Assembly (NCBI GenBank): GCA_030220185.1
Contig: JASPKZ010009915.1
Location: 1 to 64,000, forward strand
DNA length: 64,000 bases
Direction: 5' to 3'
Source: Diploptera punctata
Taxonomy: Eukaryota > Arthropoda > Insecta > Blattodea > Blaberidae
Under the pieces are notes generated by a model, which was given only the letters and a program-made list of their open reading frames with translations, did no database searches and was not told the origin of the DNA. Of the stretch, positions 1,644 through 44,074 are shown piece by piece; the first letter of the stretch is position 1, and every line of letters starts with the position of its first letter. The translations under genes were made by a program, and so were the position numbers.

Positions 1644-1845
1644 ATATGAAAAGAAAAATGGATACTTGAGTCGGGATTTGAACCGGAGTCTTTAAACTCT
1701 GTACGTTTAGCGCTCTAACGACCTGAGCTACCCAAGTTTTCCAATTCAAACATACATTTTTGTTATATATGAAAGTATTCTCAATTGACACAAGAGATAG
1801 CGGAAATTTATTCCGACTGACATCTAGTGGCTAACATAACAATTA
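1603..1845 (-). mobile_element. SINE-C copy with tRNA-like domain and (TA)n tail
   Basis: Read on the minus strand, about 1655-1735 resembles a tRNA. A near-complete acceptor stem pairs, box A reads TAGCTCAGGTCG, box B reads GGTTCAAATCC, and a 5-bp anticodon stem TAAAC/GTTTA closes a 7-nt loop with anticodon ACA. About 110 bases upstream of the tRNA-like part are shared with the unit at 2016-2207. Downstream are the shared end TTTTTCTTTTCATATC and a (TA)n tract (1603-1641) that acts as tail. The tRNA-like part therefore lies near the 3' end, unlike usual tRNA SINEs where it is the 5' head. The T stem has a mismatch, so this is a repeat, not a working tRNA gene. Confidence 0.65.
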
Positions 1846-6139: not shown

Positions 6140-6436
6140 GTGAAGACCTCAACGGCAGAGTCGGCGCAGAAGGAGTCCTTCATCACGGCGGATCAGGCCG
6201 AAGAGGCAACCCTATCTCTAAGGGAAATAGAGAAACGCTGCCTTGCGGGGAAGAGGGATCTTCAAAGTCTATGGGAGGAAAACCCAGACAGAAATTTTTC
6301 TGGTCCTCCAGGTTGGGGGTTTATGCTGTGGGCCAGCTCCCCACACATTAAAAAAAACAAAATGCTAAAAGACCAAATCAATCAAAGCCGGACGGAAAAA
6401 AGTATGAAAGACAAAAGCAACGAAAACGGACATTGA
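6140..6436 (+). CDS. Short upstream ORF of LINE-A, function unknown
   Basis: A 98-codon frame without an ATG (it begins at GTG), ending at TGA 6434-6436, exactly where the endonuclease frame opens. It is rich in Lys and Glu toward the end and shows no zinc knuckle or RRM motif. It may be part of the 5' leader rather than an ORF1 protein. The alternative is a single ancestral ORF2 whose N-terminal part is now separated by a frameshift at 6433. Confidence 0.3.
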   Translation: MKTSTAESAQKESFITADQAEEATLSLREIEKRCLAGKRDLQSLWEENPDRNFSGPPGWGFMLWASSPHIKKNKMLKDQINQSRTEKSMKDKSNENGH

Positions 6437-7764
6437 ATATAGGCACGTGGAATGTACGAGGAATTAGAAACAAAATTAATGAAGTAGCAGGAGAATTATT
6501 CCAGAACAATATAGATATTGCAACAGTGACGGAAACAAAAAAGAAAGGATGGGGAAATTCATATTTAGGAAACTACATACATTTTTGTTCAGGTGTAAAT
6601 AAATCAAAAAGAGCTAAAGCAGGAGTATCAATGTTTGTAAAAAAGAAATACAGTAAAAACATAACAGAATATGAACATATTAATGAAAGATGCCTAAAGA
6701 TTAAAATGAAGCTTATGGGAAGAACAATGGTGTTCTTAGCAGTCTACGCACCAACAGATGATGCTGCACAGAGTCAGAAAGAAAAGTACTATTCAGTATT
6801 AGTGGAACAAATAGAGAAAATACGAAGTAATGAAGAATTAATACTAATGGGAGATTTAAATGGGAAAGTGGGTAGAAGAAACAATGATGAAGCAGTAGGA
6901 AAATATGGGGAACAAGAAGTCAACGAAAATGGAAATAGAATCATAGAGATGTGCAAACAAGATAAATTAAAGATAGTAAACACATTTCTCGACCATAAGG
7001 ATATTCATAAATTTACTTGGGAACGACCTAGTCTCAATCAGAAATCAATAATAGACTACATAATTGTAAAGCAAAATACTTCCTTATTTATTAAGGACTC
7101 AAGGGTTAAAAGAGGAGCAAATTGTGGTTCTGACCACTATCTACTCACAGCACAGATCATCACCAAATTCCCTACAGGGAAAAAAGTGCATGATGAAGCA
7201 AGGGAATCAACAATGCAACCGAAGCAGGAAGAAAAATTTAAACTGTATTTATTTAATCAGAATAGTATCAAAAACTTATATAAAGAAAGACTGAGGATTA
7301 AAATTGAGAATTTGGATTACAAGGAACACATAGAAGAAGAATATAATCAATTAAAGGAAATAATACATTCAGCAGCAAAAGAAGCATTTGGCACAATAAA
7401 TAAAAAACAAAATACCCAAGATTGGTGGAATGATGATATTGAAGAATTAACCAAAAAGAAGAAAAAATGCTACTTAGAATGGTTGGCAATAAAAACAACA
7501 GAAAATTGGATAGAATACAAGAGAACAAACGCCAAAGTTAAAAGGAAAGTGATAGAAGAAAAAAACAAATTATGGAAAAGCAAATGCCAAGAAATAGAAA
7601 GTTATATAGGAGGATCACAATCATCAGAAGTATGGAGATTTCTAAAAACACTGAAAACCAACCAAGGATCCAGCAAGATAAATTTGTTAGCAAAATCAGA
7701 CGCAGAAAAACATTACAAAGCTTCACTGTCAGAAACTAGAAATGAGTTTATGGAAACAACATAA
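6433..7764 (+). CDS. LINE-A endonuclease domain (ORF2 N-terminus)
   Basis: A 443-codon open frame encoding an APE-like endonuclease that would nick target DNA for target-primed reverse transcription. Visible motifs are GTWNVRGIRNK at the N-terminus, the catalytic Glu in TVTETKKKGWG (about residue 34), GDLNGKVG with Asp and Asn near residues 141-143, a DYIIVK segment, and SDHYLL near residue 233 holding the catalytic Asp-His pair. The remainder is the Lys/Glu-rich linker to the RT. There is no ATG at the start: the frame opens with TTG overlapping the upstream stop. A frameshift just after 7764 separates it from the RT. The endonuclease reading is well conserved while the RT half is broken. 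Confidence 0.85.
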   Translation: MNIGTWNVRGIRNKINEVAGELFQNNIDIATVTETKKKGWGNSYLGNYIHFCSGVNKSKRAKAGVSMFVKKKYSKNITEYEHINERCLKIKMKLMGRTMVFLAVYAPTDDAAQSQKEKYYSVLVEQIEKIRSNEELILMGDLNGKVGRRNNDEAVGKYGEQEVNENGNRIIEMCKQDKLKIVNTFLDHKDIHKFTWERPSLNQKSIIDYIIVKQNTSLFIKDSRVKRGANCGSDHYLLTAQIITKFPTGKKVHDEARESTMQPKQEEKFKLYLFNQNSIKNLYKERLRIKIENLDYKEHIEEEYNQLKEIIHSAAKEAFGTINKKQNTQDWWNDDIEELTKKKKKCYLEWLAIKTTENWIEYKRTNAKVKRKVIEEKNKLWKSKCQEIESYIGGSQSSEVWRFLKTLKTNQGSSKINLLAKSDAEKHYKASLSETRNEFMETT

Positions 7765-7789
7765 AATCCATCCATAGAAATGAACGCCC

Positions 7790-9283
7790 TTGGAATTTGA
7801 TACAATAGATATAGAATTAGAAATTCAAACCCTAAGGGATAAAAAGGCACCAGGGCCGGGAAACATAACAAATGAGTTAATTAAATATGGCCCAAAAAAT
7901 TTAATAGGTAGATTGAGGGACTTGTATAATAAGTGCATTGCAATACGGAAGATTCCTGATGAATGGAAAATAAGCTACATAGTACCAATATACAAGAAGG
8001 GCGATAGAAGAGACGCAAAAAACTACAGAGGACTAAGTATAAATAACACATTATATAGAATATTTACGAAGTTATTAAAAACAAAGTTACAAAAAGATGT
8101 TAAAGACAAATTAGGAGAAGATCAAAATGGATTCAGACCAGGAAGGTCATGTGTTGACAATATATTTGCAATACAACAGTTAATTGAAAAACGGACTGCA
8201 GTTGGAGAAGAAACCCATTTGACAATGATAGATTTAGAGAAAGCTTATGACTCAATTCCGAGGAACAAATTATGGGAAGTATTGAAGAAATACAATATTG
8301 ACAGAAACCTAATAGAAATTATTAAACAAACCTATAAAGATAACTCCGCTTATGTTAAAATGGGAAATATAATGTCTAATCCTATAAACACCTCAAAGGG
8401 ATTGAAACAAGGGTGCAGTCTATCACCAATTTTATTTAATATTTATGTAGAATTTATATTAACGAAATGGAAACAAAGCTGCAAAGGTATGGGGATCCCA
8501 ATAGGCAATAGATTTTTGCTGACATTACAATTTGCCGATGATCAACTGGTTTAGCGCAAGACAATTTTGATATGGAATTCATGATAAAAAGGTTGAAAAG
8601 CACATATGAATCATGGGGTCTCACAGTAAATTTACAAAAAACAGAATATCTGGCAATAAATAGCAATGAAAGAGAAAACTTAGTATTGGAAGATGGAATC
8701 CAAATAAAGCAAGTGAAACAAACTAAATATTTGGGAATGATATGGATAACATCGAAGGTATAGGCAAAGAGAACATAAAACATAGAATTGAATTGAGTAG
8801 CAAAATAATATCATCATTAAATTCCATATGGTGGGATAAGCATATTTGGAAAGACACAAAAAATATATTGGTAAAACATTGGTGGAATCTGTTGCAATGT
8901 ACGGAAGTGAGGTATGGACAATCAATAAGTACTACAAGAATAGACTAATAGCTCTAGAAATGGATTATTTACGAAGAAGTGCCAGAAAGTCTAAATTAGA
9001 ACGTGTCACAAATAAGGAAATTAGAAACAAAATGGAAGCAGAAGAAAGCATAATTGAAAGAATTGAGGAAAAGGAATTAAAGTGGTTAGGACATGTTTTA
9101 AGAATGGAAGATGAGCGATGGCCGAAGCAACTATATGAATGGCATCCTAACAGAAAGAAGAAAAGAGGAAGACCAAGGTTAACATGGAAGGAAAACATGA
9201 AGACAGTAATGCAAGCTAGAGGGCTAAGCATCGAAGATGCCCAAGACCGTAGGATTTGGAGGTTTGGCACGGGAAGACGGTAG
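7790..9283 (+). pseudogene. LINE-A reverse transcriptase and C-terminus, frameshifted
   Basis: The RT reads in four pieces. 7790-8554 carries KAPGPGNITNELIKYG, FRPGRSCVDNIF, motif A MIDLEKAYDSIPR, motif B KGLKQGCSLSPILFNIY and motif C LQFADDQLV. A 1-nt shift then moves the frame to 8572-8763 (KTEYLAIN, KYLGMIW), to 8742-8948, and finally to 8846-9283 with WLGHVLRMEDERWPKQ and the GRPRLTW C-terminus. All core catalytic motifs are present, so the copy was disabled by small indels after insertion. Its open-frame fragments should not be read as separate genes. Confidence 0.88.
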
Positions 9284-10429: not shown

Positions 10430-13230
10430 CCTTGCAGGAAGTCCATTTCAATGCGCAAAGTATAACTGCACGTATATATTAAATCAGAACAATTTTCTTC
10501 TCTTTAAATATCAATGCTCTTCTCATATCTGAAAGTGGCTAAATCCCATCATTACCTCCTCTTTAATTAACATGGATGGTTATACTTTTCTTAGATATGA
10601 TCGTGTTTACAGTCGCGGGTACGGTATTGGAACTTTCGTCAGAACGGGCTCTTAATCCTAAAATTGTGTATTTATCTAATAACGAACCATCTGCTGAAAT
10701 TATGTTTATAGAAATATTTTCCAGTTTCAAAAAATGTCTTCTCTGTGTACTATACCATCCTCTTAAAATAAAAGTTATAGCTGGAATAGAATCCATTATA
10801 CAAAACGAACGAATACAATATGTTCACGTTATCGTTACGGGCGGCTTTAATATAAATATACTAGACACTGATAACAGACATACACAACAACTGATGGCTA
10901 CGTTCCAGGCTTGTGATATGACTATCCTACCCGTACAGCCTACACATCACACTCATCACTCTGAGACTTTACTTGACTTAATTGCAACTAATAATCCAGA
11001 CAGAGTACTTACTCACGGGCAACTGCCAGCCACTGCAATATCAATACATGATGTTATATTCTTAGTATATTGGCTGCTGCAGTGTCCTAATCCGACTCGA
11101 AACACTATTACGTATAGAGACTTAAAACATATAGATAATGCAGCCCTAATTGAAGAAACTATGCAGATGCCGTGGCATTCAATATGGACGCTGCATTCTG
11201 TAGACAAAAAAGTTGAGGCACTAAAAAAATTGCCTTATATTACAATTATATAACAGACACGCCTCACTGAAAACTAAACTCGTGAAACGATGTCCTGCAC
11301 CCTGGATAAACTCTTTCAATTCGTAATATGATGACTGATAGAGACGCAGCCCATAAGAAATATAGACTCGACAAAACAGACACAAGTCTCAGTCAATATA
11401 AACAGTTACGTAATAAGATAAATCAAGCTACCAGAAACGCCAAACTGAGACATTTATACAGCCTAACAGATACCAATACTTCAGAAATTTGGAAAAACTC
11501 GAACAGAATGGGAATTGGGAGAAAATACACTCAAGTAGACAAACTACCAGTTTCCCTGGACACACTCAATAATCACTTCACAGGCATAATTGCTGCTCCA
11601 AAAGATAAAGAACTAACAATAAATGAATTATTACTGACAAATCAATCCGACAGAGAACATTTCCACTTCTCATATCTTACAGATTACGCCGTAAAGGAAG
11701 CCATCATGCGAACAAAAATCAAAGCAGAAGGAAATGACCGTATAAATATTACTTTACTGAATAAACTAATCGACGATATACTACCTACTATAACTCATAT
11801 TTTGAACTCCTCGCTAAAAACTTCTACATATCCCTCATTGTGGAAACAAGCCCTCGTACGCCCACTGCCTAAAGTTAAAACGTCCTCAACTCTGAACGAC
11901 TTTCGACCCATTAGCATTTTACCTACCCCTTCAAAAGCTCTGGAATGATTAGTACATAAACAACTAACTGACTACCTAAATGAATACAACCTTTTAGATC
12001 AGTTTCAGTCAGGATTCAGGGCAGAAGACAATACAAATACTGTTCTACTAAATATTTGCGAAGACATACGCGAAGGTGCTGATAATCGAAAACTTACCAT
12101 TCTTACATTACTGGACTTTAGTAAAGCATTCGACACGATAAATTTGGACTTACTGTTGCATAAACTTAAAACCCTCTTACTCTCTGAAAGTGCCACGCAG
12201 TAGTTGAATTTCTACCTTCATGAGCGCCAGCAATCTGTTGTAGGAAATCATGCATTATGATCTTCTTGGTCCATTAATATAAACTGGAGTTCCATAGGGT
12301 TTGGTGCTTGGGCTTTTACTTTCTTCAGTCTACATAAATGACATATCCAACTCCCTAAAGCATTGCAAACATAATTTATTTGCGGACATCATGCTATACT
12401 ACATCCACACAGGCAAATATTCTCTAAATGACGCTGTTGCCAAACTAAACAAGGTTCTTCACTCACTAATCACTTGGACAGTTTTATATGGATTGCAATT
12501 AAATCCTAGAAAAAAGTAACAGTCAACCATTATGAGTCACCAGAGACTATTATCTACAATTAACCTAAACACAGTTTCTCGTATGTGTCACTTAATGGAG
12601 TTCAAATCCCTTATAACGAGACAGTAAAATTTCTTGGAGTATTTAGTCACAACTTAATTGGAATACACAAATAACCATGCATGTAAAACAGTCTTCTCAA
12701 AATATATTAATTAAATCGCGTGAGAAATTGTCTGCCATTTGCCTTTAGGAAATGTTAGTAGAAACACTTGCAATGCCCCAGTTTTATTATTGTGACACTC
12801 TTTTTACAGATTTAAATATTATTTTCACTCAAAGACTTCAACGTGTTCATAATTCTTGCGCACGTTTTATTTGTGGTATTCGCGAATTTGACCCATATTA
12901 CACCGTCCCTGGAATAATTATCGTGGCTTCGTCTCAGAGATCGTAGGACTGTTCATTCCCTATTCCTTCTCTATAAAATACTTCAAACATCCTCGCCTAA
13001 TTTTTATCATGCCGCTTCATCAGACTATCCCACACACATAATCTTGACACTCGATCCCATCAGCACATTTTCCTTTATATCCCTCCTCATCACTCTGTAT
13101 ATTATTCATTATCATTTACGGTCTCACTTACCAAAACATGGGATTCCCTTCCGCCCTATGTCAGAGATTGTCAAACTATAACATCCTTCAAAAACAAACT
13201 AAAGAATTATTTAATAACAAACTAACTTAT
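10430..13230 (+). pseudogene. LINE-B endonuclease-reverse transcriptase remnant
   Basis: The endonuclease is read in pieces: VHFNAQSI near 10445, LINMDGYTFLRYDRV near 10570, TGGFNINILDTDN near 10840, and a PTHHTHHSETLLDLIATN block near 10940. The RT follows from 11328 with DFRPISILPTPSKALE, FQSGFRAEDNT, motif A LLDFSKAFDTINLDLL, a decayed motif B and motif C (about 12290-12400; LFADIMLY in place of YADD), and LNPRKK. The C-terminal domain is scattered over 12560-13230 (QRLQRVHNSCARFICGI). Stops and frameshifts occur throughout. Confidence 0.72.
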
Positions 13231-13607: not shown

Positions 13608-14490
13608 AACCTAAATCTAAAACGCCTAAAAATTGCATGCTAATTTATGTATAACAACTATGCCAAATAATAATTAAAGCACGGTCCCAATTAATTCGTA
13701 AAAACAGTCATAATAATATTTGTAACTAAATGTATTGTAACATCTTAAATGTCAACATATGTTACCTATCCGTTACATGTAAGAACTGTAATATTTTTAA
13801 TAAATAATGATATTCATTTTTTTTTGTTCATACTTCTTCGTTAATGAATTACCTCAGTATTGAAGTAATAATATAGGGCAGTACCTACAAAATTATCTAC
13901 ATCACAGCCAATTTATGAATGGTTACTGCTATTAATTAATTTATTTTTGTTCAACGATAAAGTGAGTTTTCCAAATATCTATATAATATTATAACGAAAG
14001 GCATGGTTTTAAAATACCGATTATCTCAACTATTGGGAGAACATACAGGGTCCCCTCGTTGTTTATATACTTTCATATAAACAAAAGGGGCCAAAAATAC
14101 TAATACATGTGTTATGGTTTTGTCGTGTACTTTATATTGTTATTTTGTTTAGATTTTTTGTCCACCGGTAATTGTTTTGGGTTAACATCGTTGCCTCATA
14201 CGAAACGGGCACGCGTTCGGTCTCCAGTTGGGAAACGTTTGCTGGGTAAAATCATGTCGAGTTTTTTATTCACCTTTATGATAAATTTGGGAACATTTAA
14301 AAGCACAAATGTTCCCCGATAGCAATTGATCATTATAACCATCCCATCATATTCTCATTGCTCAGTAACTTACAAGTATGTGAATGAATGCTGTGGTATG
14401 TGATACAAGTTCCTGCTGACTCGGAGGTAGCCATGCTTTGAACTGATCCCTCCTCATTCGGAGAGCCTCTCCATGTCCTTGCGTTTTCAA
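13608..14490. other. AT-rich sequence, no gene seen
   Basis: No element boundary or convincing ORF was found between the LINE-B tail and the Helitron start. A 71-codon frame at 14107-14322 has no recognisable motif. Confidence 0.45.
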
Positions 14491-15249
14491 TCTTATAAAA
14501 ACAATTAATATGTTTTGTTTGTTTGTTTGTATGTTTGTTTGTTTGTTCTTACTTTATGCGCGGCCATACCTTTGATCCGATTGTGGTGTTTTTTTTGCAA
14601 AACGTTCAGGCGATTCCCGCGATGAACATAGGCTATACGAGAGTTGTGATGCTCAACTCCTACATCCTTAAAAATCGCCCTATGTGGTGAAAAACTTTAG
14701 AAAAGTAGGGCTTGGGACATTTAATATGGCTTACGCTGCCTAAACCATAAAAAATACACGAAATTAATGTACACAGAAATTAATATCTTAAAATCCTCTA
14801 CAAAAACGTCCGCGACAGCATATGTGTATCTCTTACGGATAACTCACAATAACCATTTATATCTTTCATTGATACCAAGAGATTAATACCCATTCGGCGG
14901 AACCTTTCATCTTTATTATTGAAGGTAAAACTCTAATGTGAAAAAAGTAGCTCTTCGGACGCTTAAATGGCTTACGCTGCCTAAAGCGTAAGGAATACCC
15001 AAAACTATTGTACACAGAAATGCATATCTCAAAACGCTCTACAAAAAAGGCAGCGACAGCATATGTTTTTTCTCTTACGGGTAACTCTCAAATAACCACT
15101 TTTATCTTTCATTGTTATCAAGAGTCCCGCGCCATAGCCGAGTGGTTAAGGTAAAAAGTCTTGGCGACGAACTGGGGACTTATGCTGGTTCGAGTCGCCA
15201 TGTGAGAAGAAATTTTCCTCATGGACTTTCGGCAAGTATGGGACCGGTG

Positions 15250-15870
15250 CACAGTGGGTCAGATATGAATTCTAGCTGGAAATAATATATGTTCACTCAC
15301 CCTCATTAATGTATCTTTTATTATTTTACTCCAATATAATCGTTAAATGACAATTCTTAACTTATCTGCAAAGGAGGGTACAATTCTAATGTTTATGAAG
15401 ACAATATAAACATCGGAAGTTGCCGATGGTTAAAAACGCATCTGGTCTACATCCCAATTTTGTTATTAGCGTTGTGTGTTCAAGTGAGCTATTCTTCTTA
15501 TTCTATATGGATACTTCACCTCAAGGTTTGTAATTTTGTTAATACATTTAATGTTTTTCTTTATAACCAGATATTATGTTAAATACATGTGAAACGATAA
15601 CTTCCATGCACTAAAAATTTACATAATCATCTTATTTTCAATTGAGCTACAAAGAAAATAGTTCTGAATAGTTGTACAAATTTTAGTTATAATATAGAGT
15701 GATTTATGGACTTCAATTCCCGCACAATAATATGTGTGCAAATTATTGCGTTTTTTTAATTATCTATCTCATTACAGGCGGTAGCCAGCAACTGAGGCCT
15801 ACCGTTGCGCGATAGAATAATTGTTTGATTTAATATGGAAAATAATGTTACATTATCATTTAGTAAACAA
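15250..15870 (+). repeat. Left long inverted arm of the Transib-like element
   Basis: It aligns in reverse complement with 17115-17749. Shared landmarks are TTATCTGCAAAGGAGGGTA, TTATTCTTCTTATTCT, AACCAGATATT, GTGATTTATGGAC and CAACTGAGGCCT/CAGCTGAGGCCT. Identity by eye is roughly 70-80% with indels. Arms this long are unusual for the superfamily and may have arisen by end duplication. Confidence 0.8.
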
Positions 15871-15965
15871 ATTATGGATGGGGGATGTTAACAGAATATT
15901 TTAAATGATACTATGAATCAGTAATTATTTTGAAAATCGAATTTCTCAAACGTACCAAGTTGGGC

Positions 15966-16510
15966 GCAAGAAAGAAGAATTCAAATGAAATATTCAGATT
16001 GGCTAGGATTGGATGTTAACTTTTCCGTTATGAAGAATTAATTTAGAACTATGACAGTCGTTGGAAAATTCTGTTCCTTCTGATTATGGAATTGGAAGAC
16101 CCAAAAATAACTTTCAAAGAGGCTGGAATTAAAGAAATGTTCATTTAAGCAGGAATTCCCTCGGGATGAACTTGCTATTGCAACAGAAATATCACTTTGG
16201 TCATATGGTAAACGGGATACTGCTGATGTTTTAAAGACATTAATCAAACAACCACAAAAATAGCTTCAAAATAATAATAAACATTACAAATCACCCCGCT
16301 TAACCCCCCTATCTTCAATGTCGACGAAGCGTTGTCTTTTTTGACAATAAAGTATCAATATGACGATATATTAACATGAGACTAGGTGTCAAAAAGAGAG
16401 GTTGTGATACCTAATCCACCTTATAATGCTTCTAGGGAACCAAATTTGTTATGTTACCTTTACAAGACAGACATTTCAGCAGAAATTAGACTTTTTCTTT
16501 GTTTTTTATC
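15966..16510 (+). pseudogene. Decayed Transib-type transposase N-terminal region
   Basis: Read across frameshifts, the plus strand gives KYSDWLGLDVNFS, then GIGRPKITFKEAG, then PRDELAIATEISLWSYGKRD, then NMRLGVKKRGCD and PPYNASREPN. The series GRP-x-F, EEL-x-x-A-x-x-x-x-L, G-K-x-D-A and a Pro-Tyr segment resembles, from memory, the N-terminal part of Transib/RAG1-like proteins found in insects and hydra. The catalytic Asp/Glu core is not recognisable, probably because the interior was replaced or deleted. It lies inside the RSS-bounded element and in one orientation, which supports the assignment. Confidence 0.5.
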
Positions 16511-16721
16511 CCAGCTTATTCGATAGATATTTTGGGTCTTACAATTCCATAAGCAAATGGAACAGGTTTTGTCAACGACTATCAGTGTTCTAAATTCTTA
16601 ATAACGGGAAAGTTTACATTTGCTCTTAGCCAATCAGAGTTGTCTTTGTTGTTAAATGTGGTGCATCTAACACTGAAGATATTACTAGTCTTGCTCTCCA
16701 ATACTATGAAGTCTTAGAATC

Positions 16722-16949
16722 TTAATGTTTGACAGCGATACAGTTGTTCAGATGACCTTCGTCCATTTCTTCATCAGTGTGATTGCATAAAATGCTTTTC
16801 CGTGAAGGCAGGACATTGATTTTGTGAACGTGTATTGCCAGGCAGTCGTGGCCCGTTGTCATCCTTAAATGTGCTGCTTCTGTTTTTCTTGGTATGTTCG
16901 GTATATCAGTATGTTTTATTAGGCATTCCTGTTTTTCGTTACAGGCCAC
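16722..16949 (-). pseudogene. LINE RNase-H-distal zinc-binding fragment within the Transib-like element
   Basis: A 75-codon minus-strand frame reads LRMTTGHDCLAIHVHKI and then LCNHTDEEMDEGHLNNC. The TGHDCL-H-H-I motif followed by C-x-H-C spacing is typical of the zinc-binding segment after the RT or RNase H in several insect LINEs. It is opposite in orientation to the transposase remnant, so it is probably a LINE fragment that landed in the element. It may explain the loss of the catalytic part. Confidence 0.5.
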
Positions 16950-17114
16950 ATTTGAAGTGTATTGTCATTCATAATAGTGTATTTCAGTAGAAATGTAACT
17001 TCTTTTCTGTCGCACAACTTCCTGTGTTTTAGAAAATCGCTTTTAAAAAATGTTATAAAAAATATATTTAAAACGATCTCCGAATACCCCTAACTACAAT
17101 TGATTAACAGAGTG

Positions 17115-17749
17115 TCAATTATTGCCTCCATCGATCACTTTTCTTTCTATATTGAATCAAACAATTCTCTGCGCGCGAAGAAAGGCCTCAGCTGCCGGCC
17201 GCCTCCTCTAATAAAAAAGCTAATTAAAAAAAACGCAATACTTTGCACACATATAATTGTGCGAGGATTGAGGTCCATAAATCACTCCATATTCTAACTA
17301 AATTTTGTACTAATATTCAGAACTGTTTATTTGTAGCTCAATTTAAAGTAAAACGATTGTGTAATTTTTATAGTGTTTCGAAAGTATGATTCCACGTGTA
17401 TTTAACACAATATCTGGTTGTACAGAAGCATGTTACATATATTAATGAAAAGTACAAACCTTGAGGTAAAGTATCCATACAGAATAAGAAGAATAACTCA
17501 CTGACCTTTATGCAAAACGTATATATTTCTACAGCTCGGTACATAACTGGGATGCGGACCAGATGAGTTCTAAACTGTCGGCAAATACCAATATTTGTAT
17601 TGTCTACATCAATTTTAGAATTCTACCCTCCTTTGCAGATAAGTGAAGAACAGTCATCCGACAATAATTTTAAAGTGAAGGAAGATGGTTTGGCGAGAGT
17701 TAGTAAAATATTTTTTTTTCCAGCTAGATTTCATATCTGGCCCACTGTG
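17115..17749 (-). repeat. Right long inverted arm of the Transib-like element
   Basis: This is the reverse-complement partner of 15250-15870, ending in CCCACTGTG at 17741-17749. The outermost 39 bp hold heptamer, 23-bp spacer and an all-A nonamer position. The inner limit is approximate. Confidence 0.8.
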
Positions 17750-18668
17750 CGGTGCCCACCCAGCATCGTGAGGCATTTGGGTAGCTACAATAAGTAACGC
17801 CTCCAGGTTGATAATACAAGCTATAACGGCTAGAGGATCCGACATCCTGACAACATGTCATCCTACACTGGCTACATGATCGTCTAATTCTGTGATTAAC
17901 ACATGTGTATGTGAGGCCAACAGCCAGCTGGTCAGCCAAAAGTATTCTAGGCCTGTCGCGCTTTGAGTTTTTTTTATACCAAGAAGATCGGATAAGCAGA
18001 TTCCCGGGCAAGCGTGCTCTGTCATACCGTTCATCCGATTGTGATGGGGCTTTTTGAAAAATGTTCAGTAGATTCAGGGACTGAACATAGGCTATAAGAG
18101 AGTTGTAATGCTCAACCACGTCACCCCTAAAAATCACCCTTTTGTAGTGAAGACGTGAAATAAATTCCCTATTTTGACGCATAAATGGCTTACGCTGCCT
18201 AAACCATAACAAATACACAAATTGATGTACACAGAATTGAACATCTAAAAAACTCTACAAAAAAGTAGAGTATAACAGCTCACGGCTGGTGGTATAAAAA
18301 CACATTAACATTTATTTAGGAGTAGCAGCGCACGCCGGGTATTAGCTAGTAAATAATAATTCTGTGATTAGAAGTTTGAACGTCCTCATCCGACAGGTCA
18401 TCCCAGGGTCAAATGGAACACGTATAAGCACTACAAAAGGAGAAGTAGAACTGAAACTAAAAAAGTAACAAATACGATATTATACAAAAAAAAACGATAT
18501 TATAATTAGTGTTTAATCAGTTGGTTGACGTTACATGTTGTTGCATATTTTACACAAAGTAATGCAATTAATTGATTTGGCGTTACATGATGAAAATCTA
18601 TTTTCATGTTAATTAAATAGAAATAGAACTGTTAACGGTTTATATGATTTTCAGATTTTTTAAAATAC

Positions 18669-27139: not shown

Positions 27140-27377
27140 AAATATATATGTAGTCAATATGCCCATTTCACCAATTAATGTTTTAAAATGGTCAACAAGT
27201 TTCTACAGCCAAGCTGTCATTCTCAAGACCAGATATTGAGTCAATATCTGGTCTTGAGAATGACAGCTTGGCTGTAGAAACTTGTTGACCATTTTAAAAC
27301 ATTAATTGGTGAAATGGGCATATTGACTACATATATATTTTAATATTATATCACCAAGAAGATCACTTGTGTATTAA
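27140..27377. mobile_element. 238-bp insert containing a perfect 207-bp palindrome
   Basis: Arms 27137-27239 and 27241-27343 are exact reverse complements (103 bp each) around a single base at 27240. A ~34-bp unpaired extension follows (27344-27377). The insert is flanked by 13-bp duplications ATAGTTAATGTTA (27127-27139 and 27378-27390) within LINE-C, and other LINE-C copies show the uninterrupted site. Each arm holds GGTC, then ACAGC/GCTGT closed by TTG, then GAAAC and GACC. This is hammerhead-like but lacks the CTGANGA core. Most likely it is a short Penelope-like insertion with inverted terminal repeats; a sequencing or assembly foldback is the alternative. Confidence 0.75.
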
Positions 27378-27394
27378 ATAGTTAATGTTATTCT

Positions 27395-28886
27395 CCCACC
27401 TCATTCTTGGTCTACCAACTGGGCGTTTTCCTTCTGGTCTTCCTACAAGAAGCTTCCATGATCGTCTTTCATTTCCCATTCGTGTCACATATCCTGTCCA
27501 TCGCAGTCTACGAGACTTAACTGCTCTTATTATATCTGGCTTCCTATAAAGACAATGTAGTTCATTGTTATTTAGTCTTCTCCATTCACCTGTCTGTTCA
27601 TCTCTCTTTGGTCCAAAAATTTTCCTAAGAACTTTATTCTCAAATACTCGTAATTTCCTTTCCTCCCTTAAAATACGAGTCCATGTTTCGCATCCATATA
27701 ATATAACTGGTAGAATAATAGTTTTATATATTTTCAGTTTAACGTTTTATGAAAGGAGTTGGGAAGTCAAGAGTCTCTGTATTGCATAATAGCACACATT
27801 TCCAGAATTGAGCCTATGTTTAATACCTTTGTGCAACTCATTCCTATTTGTGATTATTGTTCCTAGGTATTTGAATACAGTCACTTCTTCAAAATTTCCC
27901 TCATTTTTCATTAGCTGCCCATTTCCATGATATAATGTATTTCTACGTGTGACCATATATTTAGTATTATTGATATTTACTTCCAGTCCTAATTTCTTAC
28001 TGTTACTCAACAGTGTGTGCGTGTTGGCCTTTAGTATCTCCTCGATATCGGCCAGTAGTACTACATCATCAGCACAAACTAACAGCTTATTAATACCATT
28101 TAGTTGTAAGCCTTCCTCATTCTCTAAAGATTTAATGGCATGCTCTAGTACAAAATTAAATAGCATAGGAGATAGTGCATCTCCTTGCTTCAACCCATTC
28201 TGGATTTCAAAAGTGTCTGAAAACTGTTTGCCTACGCGCACCCTACTCTTTGAGCCATTTAGACACATTCGTATAAGTCTAACTAACTTTTTAGGAATTC
28301 CGAACTCCAGCAGAATACTATATAACTTCTCCCTCTTAATTGAATCATATGCTTTTTTGAAGTCTACATATAGTTGATGTACAGTACAATTATATTCCCA
28401 TTTCTTTTCTAAAATCTGTCTTATACTAAAAATCTGATCTGTTGTAGACCTGTTTCTTCTAAATGCACATTAATGATCTCCTAGAATGTCATCAATATAG
28501 GGAGTAAGTCGGCTTACTAATATATTTGTTAGAATTTTGTACGAAGTTGAAAGTAATGAGATGCCCCTGTAGTTGTTGCAATTAGTTTTATCTCCTTTCT
28601 TGTAAATTGGTACGATAATTGATTCCTTCCATTCATCTGGAAGAGGTTCTTTTTCCCAAATCATACTAAGCAACCAGCGTATCTTGTCCATCAATTTTTC
28701 TCCCCTGATTTTTATCAGTTCTGCTGGGATCTCATCTGAACCTGATGCTTTATACATCTTCAATTTTTCAATCGCCATTTCAACCTCTAATGCACTTGGC
28801 TCTGCGACTAGCATTTCTGCTGTCTGTAACTTATCCTCCTCAATGTCCTGTTCTGTATGTACATTTAATAGCTGATTAAAGTAACA
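27395..28886 (-). pseudogene. LINE-C reverse transcriptase and C-terminus with nonsense codons
   Basis: In the same frame as the endonuclease are KYKASGSDEIPAELIK-type sequence (KMYKASGSDEIPAELIK), IVPIYKKGDKTNCNNYRGIS, then a stop after LGDH near 28470. FRRNRSTTDQIFSI, motif A VDFKKAYDSIKREKL, motif B NGLKQGDALSPMLFNF and motif C LLVCADDVVLLA follow. A third stop occurs near 27747, followed by IYKTIILPVILYGCETW, ENKVLRKIFG and SRRLRWTGYV. Motif C has CADD in place of YADD/FADD but keeps both aspartates. The C-terminal GRP block is cut by the palindromic insert. Confidence 0.87.
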
Positions 28887-30308
28887 TTACCATGTATTTA
28901 ATATACTCCTAGAATCTGCAATCATATCCCCATTTTCATTCCGAATTATATTTGTTCTAGCCTGAAACCCTTTCTTCTCTATACTAATTCCCTGATATAA
29001 TTCTCTAATATTCCTATTTTTTGCATTCATTTTAAGATCATTAATCTTCTCTCTCAAATATTCCCTCTTTTTACTCTTTAGTAACTTGGTGGTTTCCCGT
29101 CTAACACTACCCAATTGCTCTAAATTTACCTCATTTGGCTCGTATAACCATTTCATTTTTGCTAGCTTTCTTTTCTTTACAATGTCGGCACATTCCTCAT
29201 CAAACCATTTCTTTTTTTGCCTCTTTTTTAAACAACCAATGCTTTCTGATGCTGACAATTTAACAGTATCTCGTATAGCATCCCATTCTTTATTTATATC
29301 AGTTTCTTCTTCGTTTTCCACATCGTCATCTGAAGATTCCAGTACTTCAAATCTATTAGCAATTTTGATTTGGTATTCTTGCCGCATTTCATCATTTTTC
29401 AAATTTTTAAATTCATATTTTACACAATCATCTTTAGCGTTTGTTCCTCTCATAAGCGATAGCCGTTGTCTGATTTTCACTCTGACCAGATGATGATCCG
29501 AATTGCAGTCTGTCCCTCTAACTGATCTAACATCAATGATGTTACTGTGCCAGCGTTTATCCACTAATACATTATCTATCTGGTTCCGAGTTTCTCCATC
29601 TGGAGACGTCCAGGTGTATTTATGAATATCCTTATGCTGAAATGTTGTGCTCTTAACAATGAGATTCTTTGTTGTGGCAAATGTGATTAATCTAACCCCG
29701 TTGTCGTTACTATCTTCATGAAGACTGAATTTGCCTATTGTTGGTTTGAATAAATCTTCCCGTCCCACTTTTGCATTAAAATCTCTTAAGACAATTTTCA
29801 TATGATGTCGTGAAAGGCTATCAAATAAGCATTCTAATTCTTCATAGAACTCATCCTTGATCTTGTCATCTTTGTCTTCTGAGGGGGCATGAACATTTAC
29901 AATTATAAAATCATGTCGTTTACCCTTTAGAATTATGTATGATATCCTATCACTAACAAACTTAATATCTCGGATAGTGGATAGGATCCTCCTTCTGACT
30001 AAAAAACCCGTTCCAAATGCAAGTCTTTCTGCACCCGCATAGTATAATGCAAAGCTTCCTGATTCCTGACTACCTACTCCTGGCCACCTAACTTCCTGTA
30101 AAGCGACTATATCCAAGGGCGATTTATCCAATTCCTGCGTTAATATCTCTAGTGCCCCGCTATTGTATAAAGTCCTAACATTCCATGTTCCTAGGAACAT
30201 GTCCCTGTGTTTGAGCCTTTGGCATGGGTTCCCCGAAGTAGTCCCCGCTCGGAGAACCGAATGGGGGTCTATTTGACCTCCGGAAAATTTTACCCCAGAT
30301 GAACCCAT
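28887..30308 (-). CDS. LINE-C endonuclease domain (ORF2 N-terminus)
   Basis: A 473-codon frame from a true ATG. It has GTWNVRTLYN near residue 40, the catalytic Glu in LQEVRWPG (residue 72), VNVHAPSEDKDD near 138, RDFNAKVG (residues 175-182) and SDHHLVRVK (270-278). The catalytic Asp and Asn of the GDFN motif and the Asp-His pair are present, but the usual Gly before Asp is Arg, an unusual substitution. The C-terminal 200 residues are the charged linker (KKRQKKKWFDEECADI). The frame ends at a TAA that appears to have replaced a sense codon after NTW; the RT continues in the same frame beyond it. Confidence 0.85.
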   Translation of the reverse strand: MGSSGVKFSGGQIDPHSVLRAGTTSGNPCQRLKHRDMFLGTWNVRTLYNSGALEILTQELDKSPLDIVALQEVRWPGVGSQESGSFALYYAGAERLAFGTGFLVRRRILSTIRDIKFVSDRISYIILKGKRHDFIIVNVHAPSEDKDDKIKDEFYEELECLFDSLSRHHMKIVLRDFNAKVGREDLFKPTIGKFSLHEDSNDNGVRLITFATTKNLIVKSTTFQHKDIHKYTWTSPDGETRNQIDNVLVDKRWHSNIIDVRSVRGTDCNSDHHLVRVKIRQRLSLMRGTNAKDDCVKYEFKNLKNDEMRQEYQIKIANRFEVLESSDDDVENEEETDINKEWDAIRDTVKLSASESIGCLKKRQKKKWFDEECADIVKKRKLAKMKWLYEPNEVNLEQLGSVRRETTKLLKSKKREYLREKINDLKMNAKNRNIRELYQGISIEKKGFQARTNIIRNENGDMIADSRSILNTW

Positions 30309-30486
30309 GTCCGCATTTCTTGACGGTTGTATTTTTACGGTGAAAGATCGTCACTCTTTCGCCCAAGGTACTTTTTTCGTCTGGCTTATCACCTTCGACC
30401 AGTCCGGCATGGGTAACCCTATCGGCAGCAATGCTACCGCCCGCATAGCTCTCAGGATCATTTAAGCACGCAAACCACTCCACCAC
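30175..30486 (-). CDS. LINE-C 5' leader ORF, uncertain
   Basis: A 103-codon frame that starts MVEWFACLNDPESYAGGS and overlaps the endonuclease start in another frame. Its placement in the 5' leader of a full-length element fits a leader peptide or a remnant of ORF1, but no domain is visible. Confidence 0.3.
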   Translation of the reverse strand: MVEWFACLNDPESYAGGSIAADRVTHAGLVEGDKPDEKSTLGERVTIFHRKNTTVKKCGHGFIWGKIFRRSNRPPFGSPSGDYFGEPMPKAQTQGHVPRNMEC

Positions 30487-30822: not shown

Positions 30823-31166
30823 CCGATTGAGGGTCTTTCCACTTTTCAGCGGTTGCCCTTTTACCAGCCGGCTGCTGGCCCTTCACAACCACATGTGTCA
30901 ATCACAGAGGTAGATGATCAACAGCCAGTGTAGGGGTGACATGTGGTTAGCATGTCGAGTCCCCCAGCCGTTATAGCTGGTTCCTCAACCTGGAGCCGCT
31001 ACTTATTGTAGCTACCCAATTGCCTCACGATGCTGGGTGGGCACCGGTCCCATACTGGCCGAAATACCATGAGAAAATTTCTTCCCCCATGGAGACTCGA
31101 ACCAGCGCAAGTCCCGTAGCTCAGCGCCAAGGCTCCTACCTTAACCTCTCGGCTACGGCGCGGGAA
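30823..31166 (-). mobile_element. SINE-A, complete copy
   Basis: On the minus strand it has a 5' head GCGCCGTAGCCGAGAGGTTAAG (box A), box B TGGTTCGAGTC, a unique body, and an end near GACCCTCAATCGG. It is flanked by 13-bp duplications CATTTAAATAAAT (30810-30822 and 31167-31179). The body contains GGGACCGGTGCCCACCC, the intact form of the site hit by the Transib-like element in the other copy. It lies inside LINE-E. Confidence 0.9.
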
Positions 31167-33479: not shown

Positions 33480-33927
33480 TAACACAATTATGAAGAGTAT
33501 TTTATTGTATAGTGAGGAATCATGGACGCTGAAGCAAGAAACCGGAACTAAATTATTAGTCAGAGTAATGGACTTTTTTAGAACATCGGCGAGAATATCG
33601 AAATTAGGCAAAATAAAAATTAATACAATAAGAGAAATAATGAATGTAGAAAAGGATGTTGAACAACAGATTGAAGAAATCCAGCTAAGATAGTATGGAC
33701 GTATAATGAGAAGAAAGGACCCTGAAACAAACAAAGAAGTATTGAAATGGATACCTCCTGTAAAAGGGAAATGTGGTAGACAAACGCCAACGTTGATGAA
33801 GGGAATTCAAGACGACATGAAGAAGATAAATATGACAGAAACAGACCCGCAAGACCGGGACGTGTGGAAGAAAAAAAAAATTATATATTTGGTTGAGAAT
33901 ACACAAACAATCCTGAAAAAGTATAAA
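33480..33927 (+). pseudogene. LINE-G 3' fragment
   Basis: The plus strand encodes YSEESWTLKQETGTKLL, a segment RTSARISKLGKIKIN with an IREIMNVE block, and after one stop YGRIMRRKDPETNKEVLKWI, GRQTPTLMKGIQDDMKK and DPQDRDVWKKK. This is a LINE ORF2 C-terminus. The 3' end passes into (TTA)n, which borders the large trinucleotide satellite. Confidence 0.72.
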
Positions 33928-34650
33928 ACTTTATTATTATTATTATTATTATTATATATTATTATCATCATTATCATTATCATTATTCATTATCATTATC
34001 ATTATCATCATTATCATCGTCTACATCATCGTCGTCATCGTCATCATCATCGTCATCATCATCATCGTCGTCATCATCATCGTCGTCATCATCGTCATCA
34101 TCATCCTCGTCATCATCATCCTCGTCATCATCATCCTCGTCATCATCATCATCGTCGTCATCATCATCCTCGTCGTCGTCATCATCATCCTCGTCATCAT
34201 CATCATCATCGTCGTCGTCATCAACATCCCTCGTCATCATCATCATCGTCGTCATCATCATCATCGTCGTCATCAACATCATCGTCGTCATCAATCATCG
34301 TCGTCATATCATCATCGTCGTCATCAACATCATCGTCGTCATCATCATCGTCGTCATCATCATCGTCATCATCATCATCGTCATCATCATCGTCGTCATC
34401 ATCATCGTCGTCGTCATCATCGTCGTCATCGTCGTCGTCGTCATCGTCGTCGTCGTCATCGTCGTCTTCGTCATCGTCGTCGTCGTCATCGTCGTCTTCG
34501 TCATCGTCATCTTCGTCATCGTCTTTGTAGTCGTCGTCATCGTCGTCATAGTCGTCGTCATAGTCGTTGTATCCGTCATCAGTCGTCGTCATCATCATCG
34601 TCATATCATCATCATCTTCATCATTATCATTATTATTATTATTATTGTTT
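33928..34650. repeat. Trinucleotide satellite of ATT, ATC and GTC units
   Basis: About 720 bp of three-base repeats that grade from ATT through ATC into GTC-rich blocks and back to ATT. The repeats produce long frames of Ser, His/Arg, Asp or Met/Thr on both strands; these are not genes. The tract begins exactly at the 3' tail of LINE-G, so it probably grew from the LINE tail. Confidence 0.93.
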
Positions 34651-37081
34651 ATTGATTATGTTATAATGCATCACGTTATGTTTGAGATGTCTCGATCCAG
34701 CTATCATTAAACTGCCATTCGGCGAAGTTGTACTATTTGAATAACACAACCTAATTAAACTATAAAACCACAAACAGCATGTATTGCTTGTGTACAAAGT
34801 GATAATTAAAAACATAATGAAAAAGAAGCTTACTATATGAAATCGCTTAATCTATTTTTATTTTATTTGAGGAATCCTGTACTATATTCTTGACTTATTA
34901 TATTAGTATTCAAAGTTTGTATTAAACGTACTAACCGCCATTTAGGAACATTTTATATACAGTATTGTTCAACAATAAACTATTTATATACTCCATGTTT
35001 TTTGCATTACTTGGAGTATTATTGCTTTGTTTCTGTGTTGTTCACAACATTATATTCACTAATTACAAACCTTTCAGTTTCTACGGAAATCCCTTTCATA
35101 CATTACTTCAGTGTTTGCATTAGTTGTTTCATCATTCGTATATGTGCTAAGAGGCTAATCGAAAACCAGAGGGAAGAGATTCATTTGCTTTTTTCTTTAT
35201 CGAAGTCTTTCTTTACCTTTCGGAGTAAATCATATTCTCGGATTTGAAAAAAAAAATAAAGTATTCCCTCTTGGCTCGCATCACAATAGTTTCCATAGTT
35301 CACTAGTCGGATAGGTATTCTGATTGTAGAAAGACAATCTGATTCTAGAAAGACCAACGATATTTTCGGAATACACGTTTAAAAATTCAACATGTCCTAC
35401 TCGCGAACTTTAAACTATGTTGGTAGCACGAAGATGCCAATGCCTTATAAGCCATGAAGGAATACAAAGACTAAAACAAAACAGTTCACACTAAACGAAT
35501 GGAATAGTAAGATGAATACCGAATTCAGTAAGATATTTACTCGTCCGTATCTTCAGCCAAATTGAAAATTGTTCATATCTCTGATATCAAGTTCACAAGA
35601 TGCATCTGAAAGGTATTCTCCCACCTACATCTAAGCGTAAGAAATAGTAATTTCTCAGAATAGTTTCCCAATACAAATTTTGAAAGATTCTACCTCATTT
35701 TTGGTCTACCCATTAGACACTTTCCCTCTTTTTTTCGCTCAATACTACATTTCAATTCAAACGTATGTGAGCATTGAAGGCCTATGCCACAAATAGGCTT
35801 AACGTAGTTTAGATAAATATAATAAGTAAATTAATAATATATAAGGATATAATTGCATGACAACTAGGTCATAATAATTTATTACGGTTAGTAAAGTAAT
35901 AATATAGTTAATCATACTGTTTTTGATATAATATAATACATTACAATTATTATCAAATTTTCTTAATTTAGTTTATATTACTGATAGCGCCCGGCAATAT
36001 CTGATAAAACATGGGAGTGAATTCCAAAAACCTGGATCTAAAACCATGAAATATGATGAGTAATAAAAAAAGTAACTTTGTACGAATTAACATTATGAGG
36101 TATGATTTATTTAAGAAAACTTTTTTCACCTCACCTCATATTGTACTTATTATTAGATAGGTTTCGGGACCTAGTTATTTTCCATCTTCAGTGCCTGGAT
36201 TGTATGGCAGAATTTATGTTCATAAATTCCGTTCAAAGGCCACAAAGAATATGGACTTATTACTAGGATTTACTTACAAGAGAATGCACTAGTGTATTAA
36301 CTCTGGTATATTTGTGTTTAACATTTAAAATCACTTAACATTTTCACTTCACATTTATATTTAATAACTTCACTGCAACTTTACTAATATTCTTTGTAAC
36401 ACATTAACTGCGGAGATGGACATATGTTAACTCCATTACTGTAGTCCGCGTCCGAGGTTGCAGGCTGATGCAACGTATATAGAATGTTGAGAAGAAACGT
36501 CTAGAAAATTCTAGTATGTAAAGGAACTTAATTCGCAAACAAAGATTTCCCGCGAAAGTTACAAGAACCAATGGGAAATTGGTATATTTAGTTCTGGATT
36601 ATTCCACAAGAACTTCAATGCAAGAAGGACTTATAATGGATGTATTGCACAATTAAATATAGACTATATGAAGGTTTTTAAAACAAAATTATATAAAAAT
36701 AAAAATAAAATAAAAAGTGTCCAGTACCTTCACGACCGTTCTTTTAGCCGTGAAACTATAAGAACGGTTGAGAACGTATCAGGATGGAAACTAATTAGAT
36801 CACGAAACCGGTCAAATAAGAAGAAGAAAATGAGTTGATGTGATACAATTTTCCTTAAATAAGTAATAAACAGTATTGTGTGAAGGAAATGATAAATCAG
36901 AGAATTCTTGAGATATTGTGCTAACGATATGAAAATTATATACTTAATTAAAGCACTTCCAAGTATTGTAGGTCTACAAAGTAGGACCTCTGAATATTTC
37001 TTCCATTCTGTAGTACGTGTTTTCCCAAATTTTGAGAGTACTAGGCTCCTCAGAAATATCAATATTTGCATCAGTACTCAC
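34651..37081. other. No gene assigned; small LINE-C scrap at about 35612-35740
   Basis: Mostly AT-rich unique-looking sequence. At 35612-35740 two pieces matching the LINE-C 3' part (TATTCTCCCACCTA and TACCTCATTTTTGGTCTACC) flank about 85 bp of other sequence. At about 36150-36215 the minus strand has a Penelope-3'-end-like stretch (CACTGAAGATGG, then CCCGAAACC) without closing stems. Confidence 0.35.
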
Positions 37082-41575: not shown

Positions 41576-42955
41576 TACACTGGGTAATGATGAAGTCGAA
41601 GTTAGAACAAATATAAATTTAGATTTCTTTTAAAAGTTGCCCATGTCCGGCAGCCCCTTATTTCTTGTGGTAGGAAATTCCAGTTGCGAGAAGTGGAGAT
41701 GGTATATGACATGGAGTGATGTGATGTCCTATTTTGCGGTATATTAAGCAAGAGACTATGTTGTGATCTTGTGTTTAAGTTATGGTTTGAGGATAGATAC
41801 TGGGAACGAGATGATAACTAACTGGGAATCAAGGTACGTAGGATCTTAAATAAGAGAATTATACAATGCGATTTTCTTCTCTCTTTTAGATGTAGCCAAG
41901 ATAATTTGTGGAAAAATGGAGAAATGTGATCGTATTTTCGAACATTAAATATGAATCTGATACACATATTATGGACAAGTTTGAATCTAAGTAAAGTCCC
42001 AAGTTTTTACGACATCGGTGTAAGGAATTTGTTCGTTATCTAATATGACAGCCGGTATATTGCCATTGTTTATGGAGTGTAACAGTCTTGGATGTCCGAT
42101 AATTATTACTTGCGTTTTGTTTACATTTAGTTTTAGCCCATATTGTCTGGAGCATAAAGATATATGTCTGAGGTCAGTGTTTACTTTGTCAATATATTCC
42201 TTAATTTCGTCAGGCCTAAGGTGTGTGTATATCTGTAAGTCGTCGGCGTAAAGATGATGCTTGCAGAGTTGTAGTTTGTTTGTCACATCGTTGATATAAA
42301 TCGAGAAGAGAAGAGGAGCGAGGACGCCGCCTTGAGGTACCCCTTTCCTCACCAAGCGCCAGGAAGAAATGCGATTATTAAGAGAAACTGATTGCTGACG
42401 ATTAGTGATGTAAGATCTAAACCAATCAAGGCAGTTTTCCGACAGATGTAGTGTCTTAAGTCTCGCTAGGATTAAGTCTATATCTACTGTGTCAAAGGCT
42501 TTGCTGTAGTCGAGTAGGACTTTTGCGCTGAGTTTGCATTTGTCCATTGAGTCTCTTATGTCCTCTACAATGTCATGTAGTGCAGTACTTGTATGATGTC
42601 CTGTTCTAAAACCAGACTGATGCTCAACAAGTAAGTCGTGTGTGATGAGGTAGTCTGTTAACTGTGAGTGTATTATGTGTTCCAGTGCTTTAGATAAAGA
42701 GGGAAGAATACCAATTGATCTATAATCATCGAGTGTTGTGGGAGTGTTTGATTTCGGTGTAGAACGAACTGGAGCCATTTTCCATAGCCTGGGATTGATC
42801 ACAGTCATTATAGAGGCATTAAAAATGTGGGTTATTGTCGGGAAAATAATGCCAATTGTTTTTTGCAGGAGAGTTATTGTTGTATTGTCTATTCCTTGTG
42901 CTTTAGATTTAATGCGTAATACTGCTCTTTTGGCGTCATCAGGTGAGATATAGGG
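41191..42955 (-). mobile_element. LINE-B, 5'-truncated copy with (AAT)n tail
   Basis: The 3' end lies at about 41226 (AGAGAAGGCCTTGATGGCCTTA on the minus strand), preceded in plus orientation by an (AAT)n tract at 41191-41225 that serves as tail. Coding runs to about 42955, within the RT N-terminus (DAKRAVLRIKSKAQGID). The endonuclease and ORF1 are missing. Internal AAT-rich and (TA)n segments (41400-41575) lie in the 3' UTR. Confidence 0.8.
41987..42955 (-). pseudogene. LINE-B reverse transcriptase, open 320-codon fragment
   Basis: The frame is open from the truncation point to 41987; the first ATG lies at 42808. Motifs are KMAPVRSTPKS, LDDYRSIGILPSLSKALEH, HQSGFRTGHHTSTALHD, motif A KVLLDYSKAFDTVDIDL, motif B RKGVPQGGVLAPLLFSIYIN and motif C KHHLYADDLQIYTHL, then GLKLNVNKTQVIIIG. 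All three catalytic aspartates are present. After the stop, C-terminal sequence (LLFKILRTLIPS, TSRNWNFLPQEIRG) resumes in another frame near 41880 with the middle missing, so there is an internal deletion. Confidence 0.85.
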
Positions 42956-44074
42956 AAAAAAAAAGATTTTTTTCTCGGGTGGGTTGGGAATATGACGTTA
43001 ATTCATCAGTAAACATAAATTCGTAGAAATTCAGAATTCCAGTTGAATAGGCTACTATTATAAATAAATTTGTATCTTCCAACAGAAAAGAATTTTAAAT
43101 AATGAAATATTGTTACAGCTATAGGACACTGTTCGAACCAACTACTAACATATTGACACCATATAAAACGTAGGTTTGTGGCCGCGCGGATATAAACTAC
43201 CCTTACATCCCTATCCTGATCTAATATTTTCCAACATTACTCTGTATAATTTACCTCTCTCAAGTAATATTTAATGTCATTCTCTCACCTCATTCTAGGC
43301 TTACTACGGAACATTTTCCTTCTAGTTTTCCTAAATTGAGATTCCATTATCCTCTTTCATTGACCTTCATGACATAGTTCTTAAACATAGCATTCTATGG
43401 TACTTAACTCTCCTTATTTCATCTGAGATTTTATAGATTCTGTAGCACAATGTTTTGTGATATTTATTATTATTGCCGTTTTCACCCTTTTTAACTGCGA
43501 GGCGAAGAAATGGAAGCCAGAATCCAGCAATGGCAACCCGTCATATGGAATAGCTGGATATCCCTACTTAAGTAAAAATGGCATTGAGTGAGGCGGGTCG
43601 CGGCTACCAATTCAGCAGTTGTATTACTTCCTTACAGTTTATATGAGAGTTTTGTCACGGGATTTTAATGTCTTCGAGTAAAATCAGGTGGTAATTTATT
43701 TGGACACTGTCTTAGCACATCACAACGCTTTTCTCGAAAAAAAAACTTCAAGGTTGGTTTCGTAATGCAACAGTTAACAGTTTCCTTGAAAGAATTTTAT
43801 TCCCTAGAATTTGTAATCGTTTCGTCTCCCATAAAGTAAGAGTCAATTATTCGCATATTTATTATACAACTGGAAGAATAGCTGTTTAATATATATTTCA
43901 TTTCATGTTGCGATTTAGGGTTGACAAAGTGTCTGTATGCGTAATAACGTGCATTTCCAGGATTGAAAAATTAGTAAAATTGAGTTGTGCGCCATGTTGA
44001 ACCTAAAGATTTGATAATATTTCCTAGTACAAAATTGAATCGTAGAAGAGATAATGCAAATTCTTACTTTAATC

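Follow-up and report, generated by a model that had tools for sequence, protein, structure and literature searches.

A 2500-bp element at positions 15250-17749 of a 64,000-nucleotide stretch from Diploptera punctata (GenBank assembly GCA_030220185.1, contig JASPKZ010009915.1, positions 1 to 64,000, forward strand; hereafter the window) is, with good confidence, a dead, non-autonomous fold-back transposon of the Transib superfamily that inserted once into a short interspersed element (SINE) and was then multiplied as the passenger of a Helitron-like element. Transib transposons are the presumed source of the vertebrate antibody-gene recombinase. That Transib ends resemble its recombination signal sequences (RSS) is already known; the fold-back build and the passenger history are new. 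Among the papers listed in our literature searches, none on Transib with fold-back or long inverted repeats concerns a Transib fold-back, and none on Transib nested or carried in Helitron concerns such a passenger; claims of novelty are limited to these searches. The features are listed by position in the window.

14491-18349, + strand: non-autonomous Helitron-like outer element, 5' TC and 3' CTAG, between host A 14490 and host T 18350
14701-14935, + strand: first tandem unit of about 240 bp in the outer element (limits approximate)
14943-15124, + strand: second copy of the unit of about 240 bp (limits approximate)
15121-15249, + strand: interrupted SINE, left part (start approximate)
15245-15249, no strand: left target duplication CGGTG, from flank comparison and the empty SINE
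15250-15288, + strand: left end, with heptamer 15250-15256, spacer 15257-15279 and A-rich block 15280-15288
15250-16133, + strand: left arm, a Transib 5' end running into the transposase gene (905 bp in the consensus)
16114-16323, + strand: broken N-terminal remnant of a Transib transposase, profile positions 104-176, from tblastn and profile (1-230 in the consensus)
16504-17749, - strand: right arm, an inverted copy of the Transib 5' end, split by 16639-16979
16504-17179, - strand: putative second, inverted transposase-start remnant (approximate limits, placed with the copy consensus; in the window copy it does not exceed the shuffles)
16639-16979, - strand: later insert of about 340 bp in the right arm, missing in all but two of the 18 other complete copies
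17711-17749, - strand: right end, with heptamer 17743-17749, spacer 17720-17742 and A-run 17711-17719
17750-17754, no strand: right target duplication CGGTG, from flank comparison and the empty SINE
17750-17932, + strand: interrupted SINE, right part (end approximate)
30863-31165, - strand: uninterrupted SINE, the empty site

Both termini carry the heptamer CACAGTG, at 15250-15256 (+) and 17743-17749 (-), and so begin with the RSS-like CAC of Transib. The 23-bp spacers behind them, GGTCAGATATGAATTCTAGCTGG on the left and GGCCAGATATGAAATCTAGCTGG on the right, agree at 21 of 23 positions. Direct reading thus bears out what an earlier note on this DNA had said of heptamers and spacers. That note took an exact CACAGTG to be unusual, but such ends are already described: excerpts of PMC8355894 describe Transib ends as RSS-like, some with heptamers and nonamers identical to the canonical ones, and with spacers of 12 or 23 +/- 1 bp. 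The A-rich, nonamer-like blocks that it reported are present but weak. They match ACAAAAACC at 4/9 positions on the left and 6/9 on the right in the window copy, against a background (all 9-mers of the copy consensus) in which 22.8% score at least 4 and 2.2% at least 6. Equal scores are reached at spacings of 22-25 bp on the left and 23-25 bp on the right, so the blocks show no specificity for 23 bp. The copy consensus gives 7/9 and 5/9, and its left heptamer is CACACTG.

CGGTG is duplicated around the element, at 15245-15249 and 17750-17754, and the SINE copy at 30863-31165 (-) holds the exact empty site, GGGACCGGTGCCCACCC. The 5-bp target duplication expected of Transib, claimed earlier for this element, is therefore found at the founding site, from the two flanks together with the uninterrupted SINE. 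The 5-bp duplication of the earlier note stands for the founding site, but the present locus was most likely reached inside a Helitron-like repeat and not by the element's own transposition.

The evidence for this comes from other copies in the genome. A first search yielded 2283 first-look candidates; scoring was limited to the best 40, so the sample represents the copies most like the window copy. Twenty copies were fetched; two (L022 and L028) have no right end within 6.1 kb, leaving 18 complete copies. In each of the 18 the element is flanked by the two parts of the SINE, interrupted at the identical position. The 5-bp flanks are equal on both sides in 11 and unequal in 7. Homology extends leftward past the SINE in every one of the 18 (300 bp fetched), and where longer left flanks were taken, at six loci, it reaches 14489-14536. 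On the right it extends to 18332-18361 in 16 of the 18, stopping at 17880 in L014 and continuing in L009. The last of these (G000:C9265:400844-406944) matches the window locus at 99.4% identity across 6.1 kb, and is probably a second haplotype in the assembly; it was excluded from heptamer and distance counts, and L014 from right-flank distances. Because all complete copies share the SINE position and DNA beyond the SINE, within a repeat (14491-18349) with Helitron-type ends, CGGTG most likely goes back to a single founding insertion, the product of which was then multiplied as a passenger.

Twelve copies of near-standard length show a mean identity of 96.8% (91.4-99.2%), and the window copy is 86.5-91.8% identical to them. 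The uniform CACAGTG ends of the earlier note hold for the window copy, but among passengers the left heptamer varies (CACAGTG in 11, CACACTG in 6 and CACAATG in 3 of 20 copies). Right heptamers in 18 copies are CACAGTG in 14, with four single variants.

In the window the outer repeat begins with TC directly after an A and ends with CTAG directly before a T. Right ends could be read at 14 further loci; with the window, these 15 comprise CTAG (9), CTAA (5) and CTAT (1), so that 14 of 15 fit CTRR, and a T follows directly in all 15. At left ends, A followed by TC was found at 12 of 21, the remainder being unreadable or changed. DNA beyond the ends differs between loci, and the flanks of these filled sites indicate that the element entered between A and T, with no duplication seen. 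The outer element thereby resembles non-autonomous Helitrons, for which excerpts of PMC4067079 and PMC5876387 give 5' TC, 3' CTRR and insertion between A and T. It differs from them in lacking a clear 3' hairpin and in bearing a Transib-interrupted SINE and tandem units that include the first ~143 bp of Transib.

The strongest rival to our reading, though a rather improbable one, is that the composite owes its spread to SINE retrotransposition or segmental duplication and not to a Helitron. In its favor, where a Helitron would have a hairpin some 11 bp from its 3' end, CTAG is preceded by no notable hairpin but by a weak fold of -4.9 kcal/mol, for which reason we call the outer element Helitron-like and not Helitron; an autonomous Helitron was not found, none having been sought; and the number of tandem units varies. 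Against it stand the common ends, A before TC and CTRR before T, within differing outside DNA, which fit the Helitron definition in the excerpts cited above. The tandem units themselves, in the eight loci compared, have absorbed a piece of the SINE together with the initial ~143 bp of Transib, which is why the left Transib end is present at least twice in 17 of 20 loci of a second batch. In that batch L045 and L046 are probably misoriented, and the readable right end of L038 belongs to a neighbouring copy. The outer elements at L042 and L043 (G000:C1949 and C7783) hold four left-end copies each, mostly in tandem units, the Transib end having there become part of a satellite-like array.

A second rival, which we consider quite unlikely, holds that a Transib targeted one site of the SINE, every element-bearing SINE being a separate insertion. 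It would suit the identical SINE position, with CGGTG-like flanks, of all 18 complete copies, and also the two copies (L011 and L017) with TGGTG on both sides, which under a single CGGTG founding require a shared later change. Targeting was dropped since homology among the copies seen does not stop with the SINE: it goes on to the left in 18 of 18 and reaches the common right end in 16 of 18. Pairwise distances among 17 copies (2000 permutations for each correlation) also speak against it. Distances in the right flank correlate with those in the left Transib half (r 0.72, reached in 0/2000 permutations) and weakly with those in the right half (r 0.35, 152/2000). The left flank correlates with the left Transib half (r 0.56, 26/2000) and with the right flank (r 0.51, 20/2000), and weakly with the right Transib half (r 0.31, 255/2000). 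Like the TGGTG copies, one of these comparisons weighs against our own reading: the two Transib halves hardly correlate with each other (r 0.23, 313/2000). For this reason we consider that copies probably also recombined with one another.

Insertions outside the outer repeat tell further against SINE targeting. An end pattern with a preceding non-G base, searched in the 3.12-Gb genome with at most one mismatch, gave 688 + 710 matches, whereas its reversed form gave 0 + 0; many of the 688 + 710 may be Helitron copies, as the mismatch may fall on the preceding base. From 100 zero-mismatch places listed, 20 ends were inspected. Their context is the left part of the SINE in 8, its right part in 1, a place beside the tandem unit in 2 and other DNA in 9. 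At E 1e-3 the nine flanks in other DNA (121 bp) show no match to the SINE, to the outer repeat (window and L029) or to one another, while the other 11 do match. Right ends were sought piece by piece at six of the nine independent sites and recovered at four: L054 (1615 bp, nearly arms only), L057 (about 2.1 kb), L066 (about 2.25 kb) and L060 (about 2.5 kb). At L051 and L052 the piece examined showed no homology. The heptamer is kept at all four right ends, in one with a 1-base loss. Because 9 of 20 inspected ends sit in unrelated DNA, with four right ends recovered there, we conclude that the fold-back family also transposed independently with these ends. The duplications at these sites fit less well, with CATTA/CATTG (4/5, assuming the 1-base loss in the right heptamer) at L057, TTATA/CTATG (3/5) at L066, CGCTT/CACTG (3/5) at L060, and CATCC/ATCCT (1/5 in register, ATCC being common at a 1-base offset) at L054; on their own, such worn duplications do not prove a length of 5 bp. 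In viral contigs the 27-base end pattern had 0 exact matches; a search there for a Transib relative gave 11 pattern matches, 0 of them confirmed, and phage records yielded no such relative either.

The fold-back structure was described earlier as inverted arms of ~620 bp. Inverted arms are real, but that length understates them. In the window they align at 76% over 615 columns, with a second block of 140 bp, and in a 12-copy consensus at 84% over 905 bp; the window arms appear shorter because an insert of about 340 bp (16639-16979) splits the right one. In the consensus the arms make up 2 x 905 of 2182 bp, hence most of the element, as in fold-back transposons. Each consensus arm carries the transposase start, in opposite directions, and both termini look like inverted copies of one Transib 5' end. 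If both have this single origin, the similarity of the two spacers reflects common descent first of all. The element thus recalls foldback elements such as Galileo and Tetris, with very long inverted arms and scarce or absent intact coding sequence; Galileo differs in belonging to the P-element superfamily (PMC3688188), whereas the present element is assigned to Transib. The ~340-bp insert also occurs in L009 and L019. We take it to resemble a non-LTR (long terminal repeat) retrotransposon tail; a Pfam scan of its open reading frame (ORF) gave no match.

Assignment to Transib is supported by the coding remnant. A Transib-like protein served as bait, and 968 proteins were found at E <= 1e-5, of which 120 were listed and used. 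The bait matches HzTransib (6pqn_A, E 9.5e-115) best among solved structures, ahead of RAG1L and RAG1 chains, and the set is on that ground taken as Transib. In unmasked tblastn a simple repeat at 33.9-34.6 kb ranked top, and it was masked for the final run. (The tract, at 33850-34700, is long, reads as acidic or serine-rich runs, and is a source of false protein matches.) With this one repeat masked, the top match of the 120 proteins in the window lies within the element, at 16114-16323 (E 1.3e-4), the best outside it has E 0.021, and 67 of the 120 score higher within the element than in the remaining window. The earlier note had proposed running the remnant against Transib profiles. Frameshift-tolerant alignment to a profile of the 120 proteins scored 58.0 on the + strand of the 12-copy consensus (profile positions 1-230, consensus positions 564-1268) and 42.5 on the - strand (profile 1-84), while 60 dinucleotide shuffles of that consensus averaged 21.4 (standard deviation 2.5) with a maximum of 29.8. 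The window copy itself scored 40.8 (+) and 27.4 (-). Homology to the HzTransib/RAG1-related transposase is therefore present, in the N-terminal part only and broken. With the consensus remnant above all 60 shuffles and the best tblastn match inside the element, the superfamily assignment made in the earlier note holds.

Several results weigh against this assignment. The - strand remnant of the window copy (27.4) lies below the shuffle maximum; taken alone, the window remnant is unmatched in Pfam (five pieces) and PDB, and 344 candidates from the protein collection include 0 at E <= 1. A DDE core is absent from the element, the profile match ending at position 230 of 670. The earlier note had also proposed collecting copies for a consensus and looking for an autonomous relative; the 12-copy consensus was built, but an autonomous partner was not found, with no completed genome-wide transposase protein search behind that result. 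Still, the element shares with Transib members such as HzTransib a CAC-starting, RSS-like heptamer, a spacer of ~23 bp, the 5-bp duplication and a homologous transposase N-terminus. It differs in having no intact gene, inverted arms of ~900 bp, two ends apparently taken from one 5' end, and multiplication as a passenger.

That the element is instead a RAG-like (RAG1L/RAG2L) transposon seems very unlikely. CAC-starting, RSS-like ends and 5-bp duplications are common to both groups according to excerpts of PMC7204232, yet the coding remnant aligns for 230 positions with the N-terminal profile of Transib (no search was made for RAG2-like sequence), and the protostome RAGL end consensus in the same excerpts, CACTWMCAAACKTYKBB, differs. 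The least credible source is a different DDE superfamily whose ends read CA..TG (EnSpm/CACTA, Chapaev or Mirage), given the Transib coding remnant and the perfect 5-bp duplication at the founding site.

The history that we propose would begin with the joining of two inverted copies of one Transib 5' end, each comprising end signal, 5' untranslated DNA and transposase start, into a fold-back; the symmetric termini, with an equal heptamer and 23-bp signal, are explained if both arms copy that one end. A Transib transposase supplied in trans most likely cut 5' of each CACAGTG, and insertion, once and with a 5-bp stagger, would have been into CGGTG of a SINE. That SINE would have lain within the non-autonomous Helitron-like element, the transposition of which, presumably of the rolling-circle kind, would have copied SINE and Transib jointly to many places. 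One such passenger would be the window copy, which acquired its ~340-bp insert afterwards.

On this history, RSS-like signals can increase in number as the cargo of a second transposon, with no Transib activity needed, and the copy number of ends would then reveal little about past transposase activity. A fold-back with both ends from one 5' end may also offer a natural symmetric 23/23 substrate for work on Transib and RAG end recognition. A caution follows: a target duplication that is perfect and has an empty site may have come down with the copies of a larger repeat. More speculatively, and we think it a doubtful proposition, the Helitron-like element seeded the genome with many RSS-type pairs and tandem solo copies (23/23), of which a live Transib transposase could cut intact ones in trans. 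Were this true, trans cutting would yield rearrangements and large composite segments able to move, and would offer a natural model for how RSS pairs come to flank unrelated DNA before V(D)J recombination.

Elsewhere in the window, a Tc1/mariner-type transposase lies in two pieces at 57043-58013, with Pfam matches to HTH_Tnp_Tc3_2 and DDE_3. ORFs like those of non-LTR retrotransposons occur at 6352-9280, 10567-11945, 27366-30350 and 41990-42997; the four scanned gave Exo_endo_phos and RVT_1 matches, one below the Pfam cut-off. The closest relative of a long interspersed element (LINE) protein in the window is from Blattella germanica (72% identity), with weaker matches in Periplaneta, ants and Cryptotermes. 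A tRNA-like sequence at 1663-1737 (-) is the sole Rfam match at the gathering threshold.
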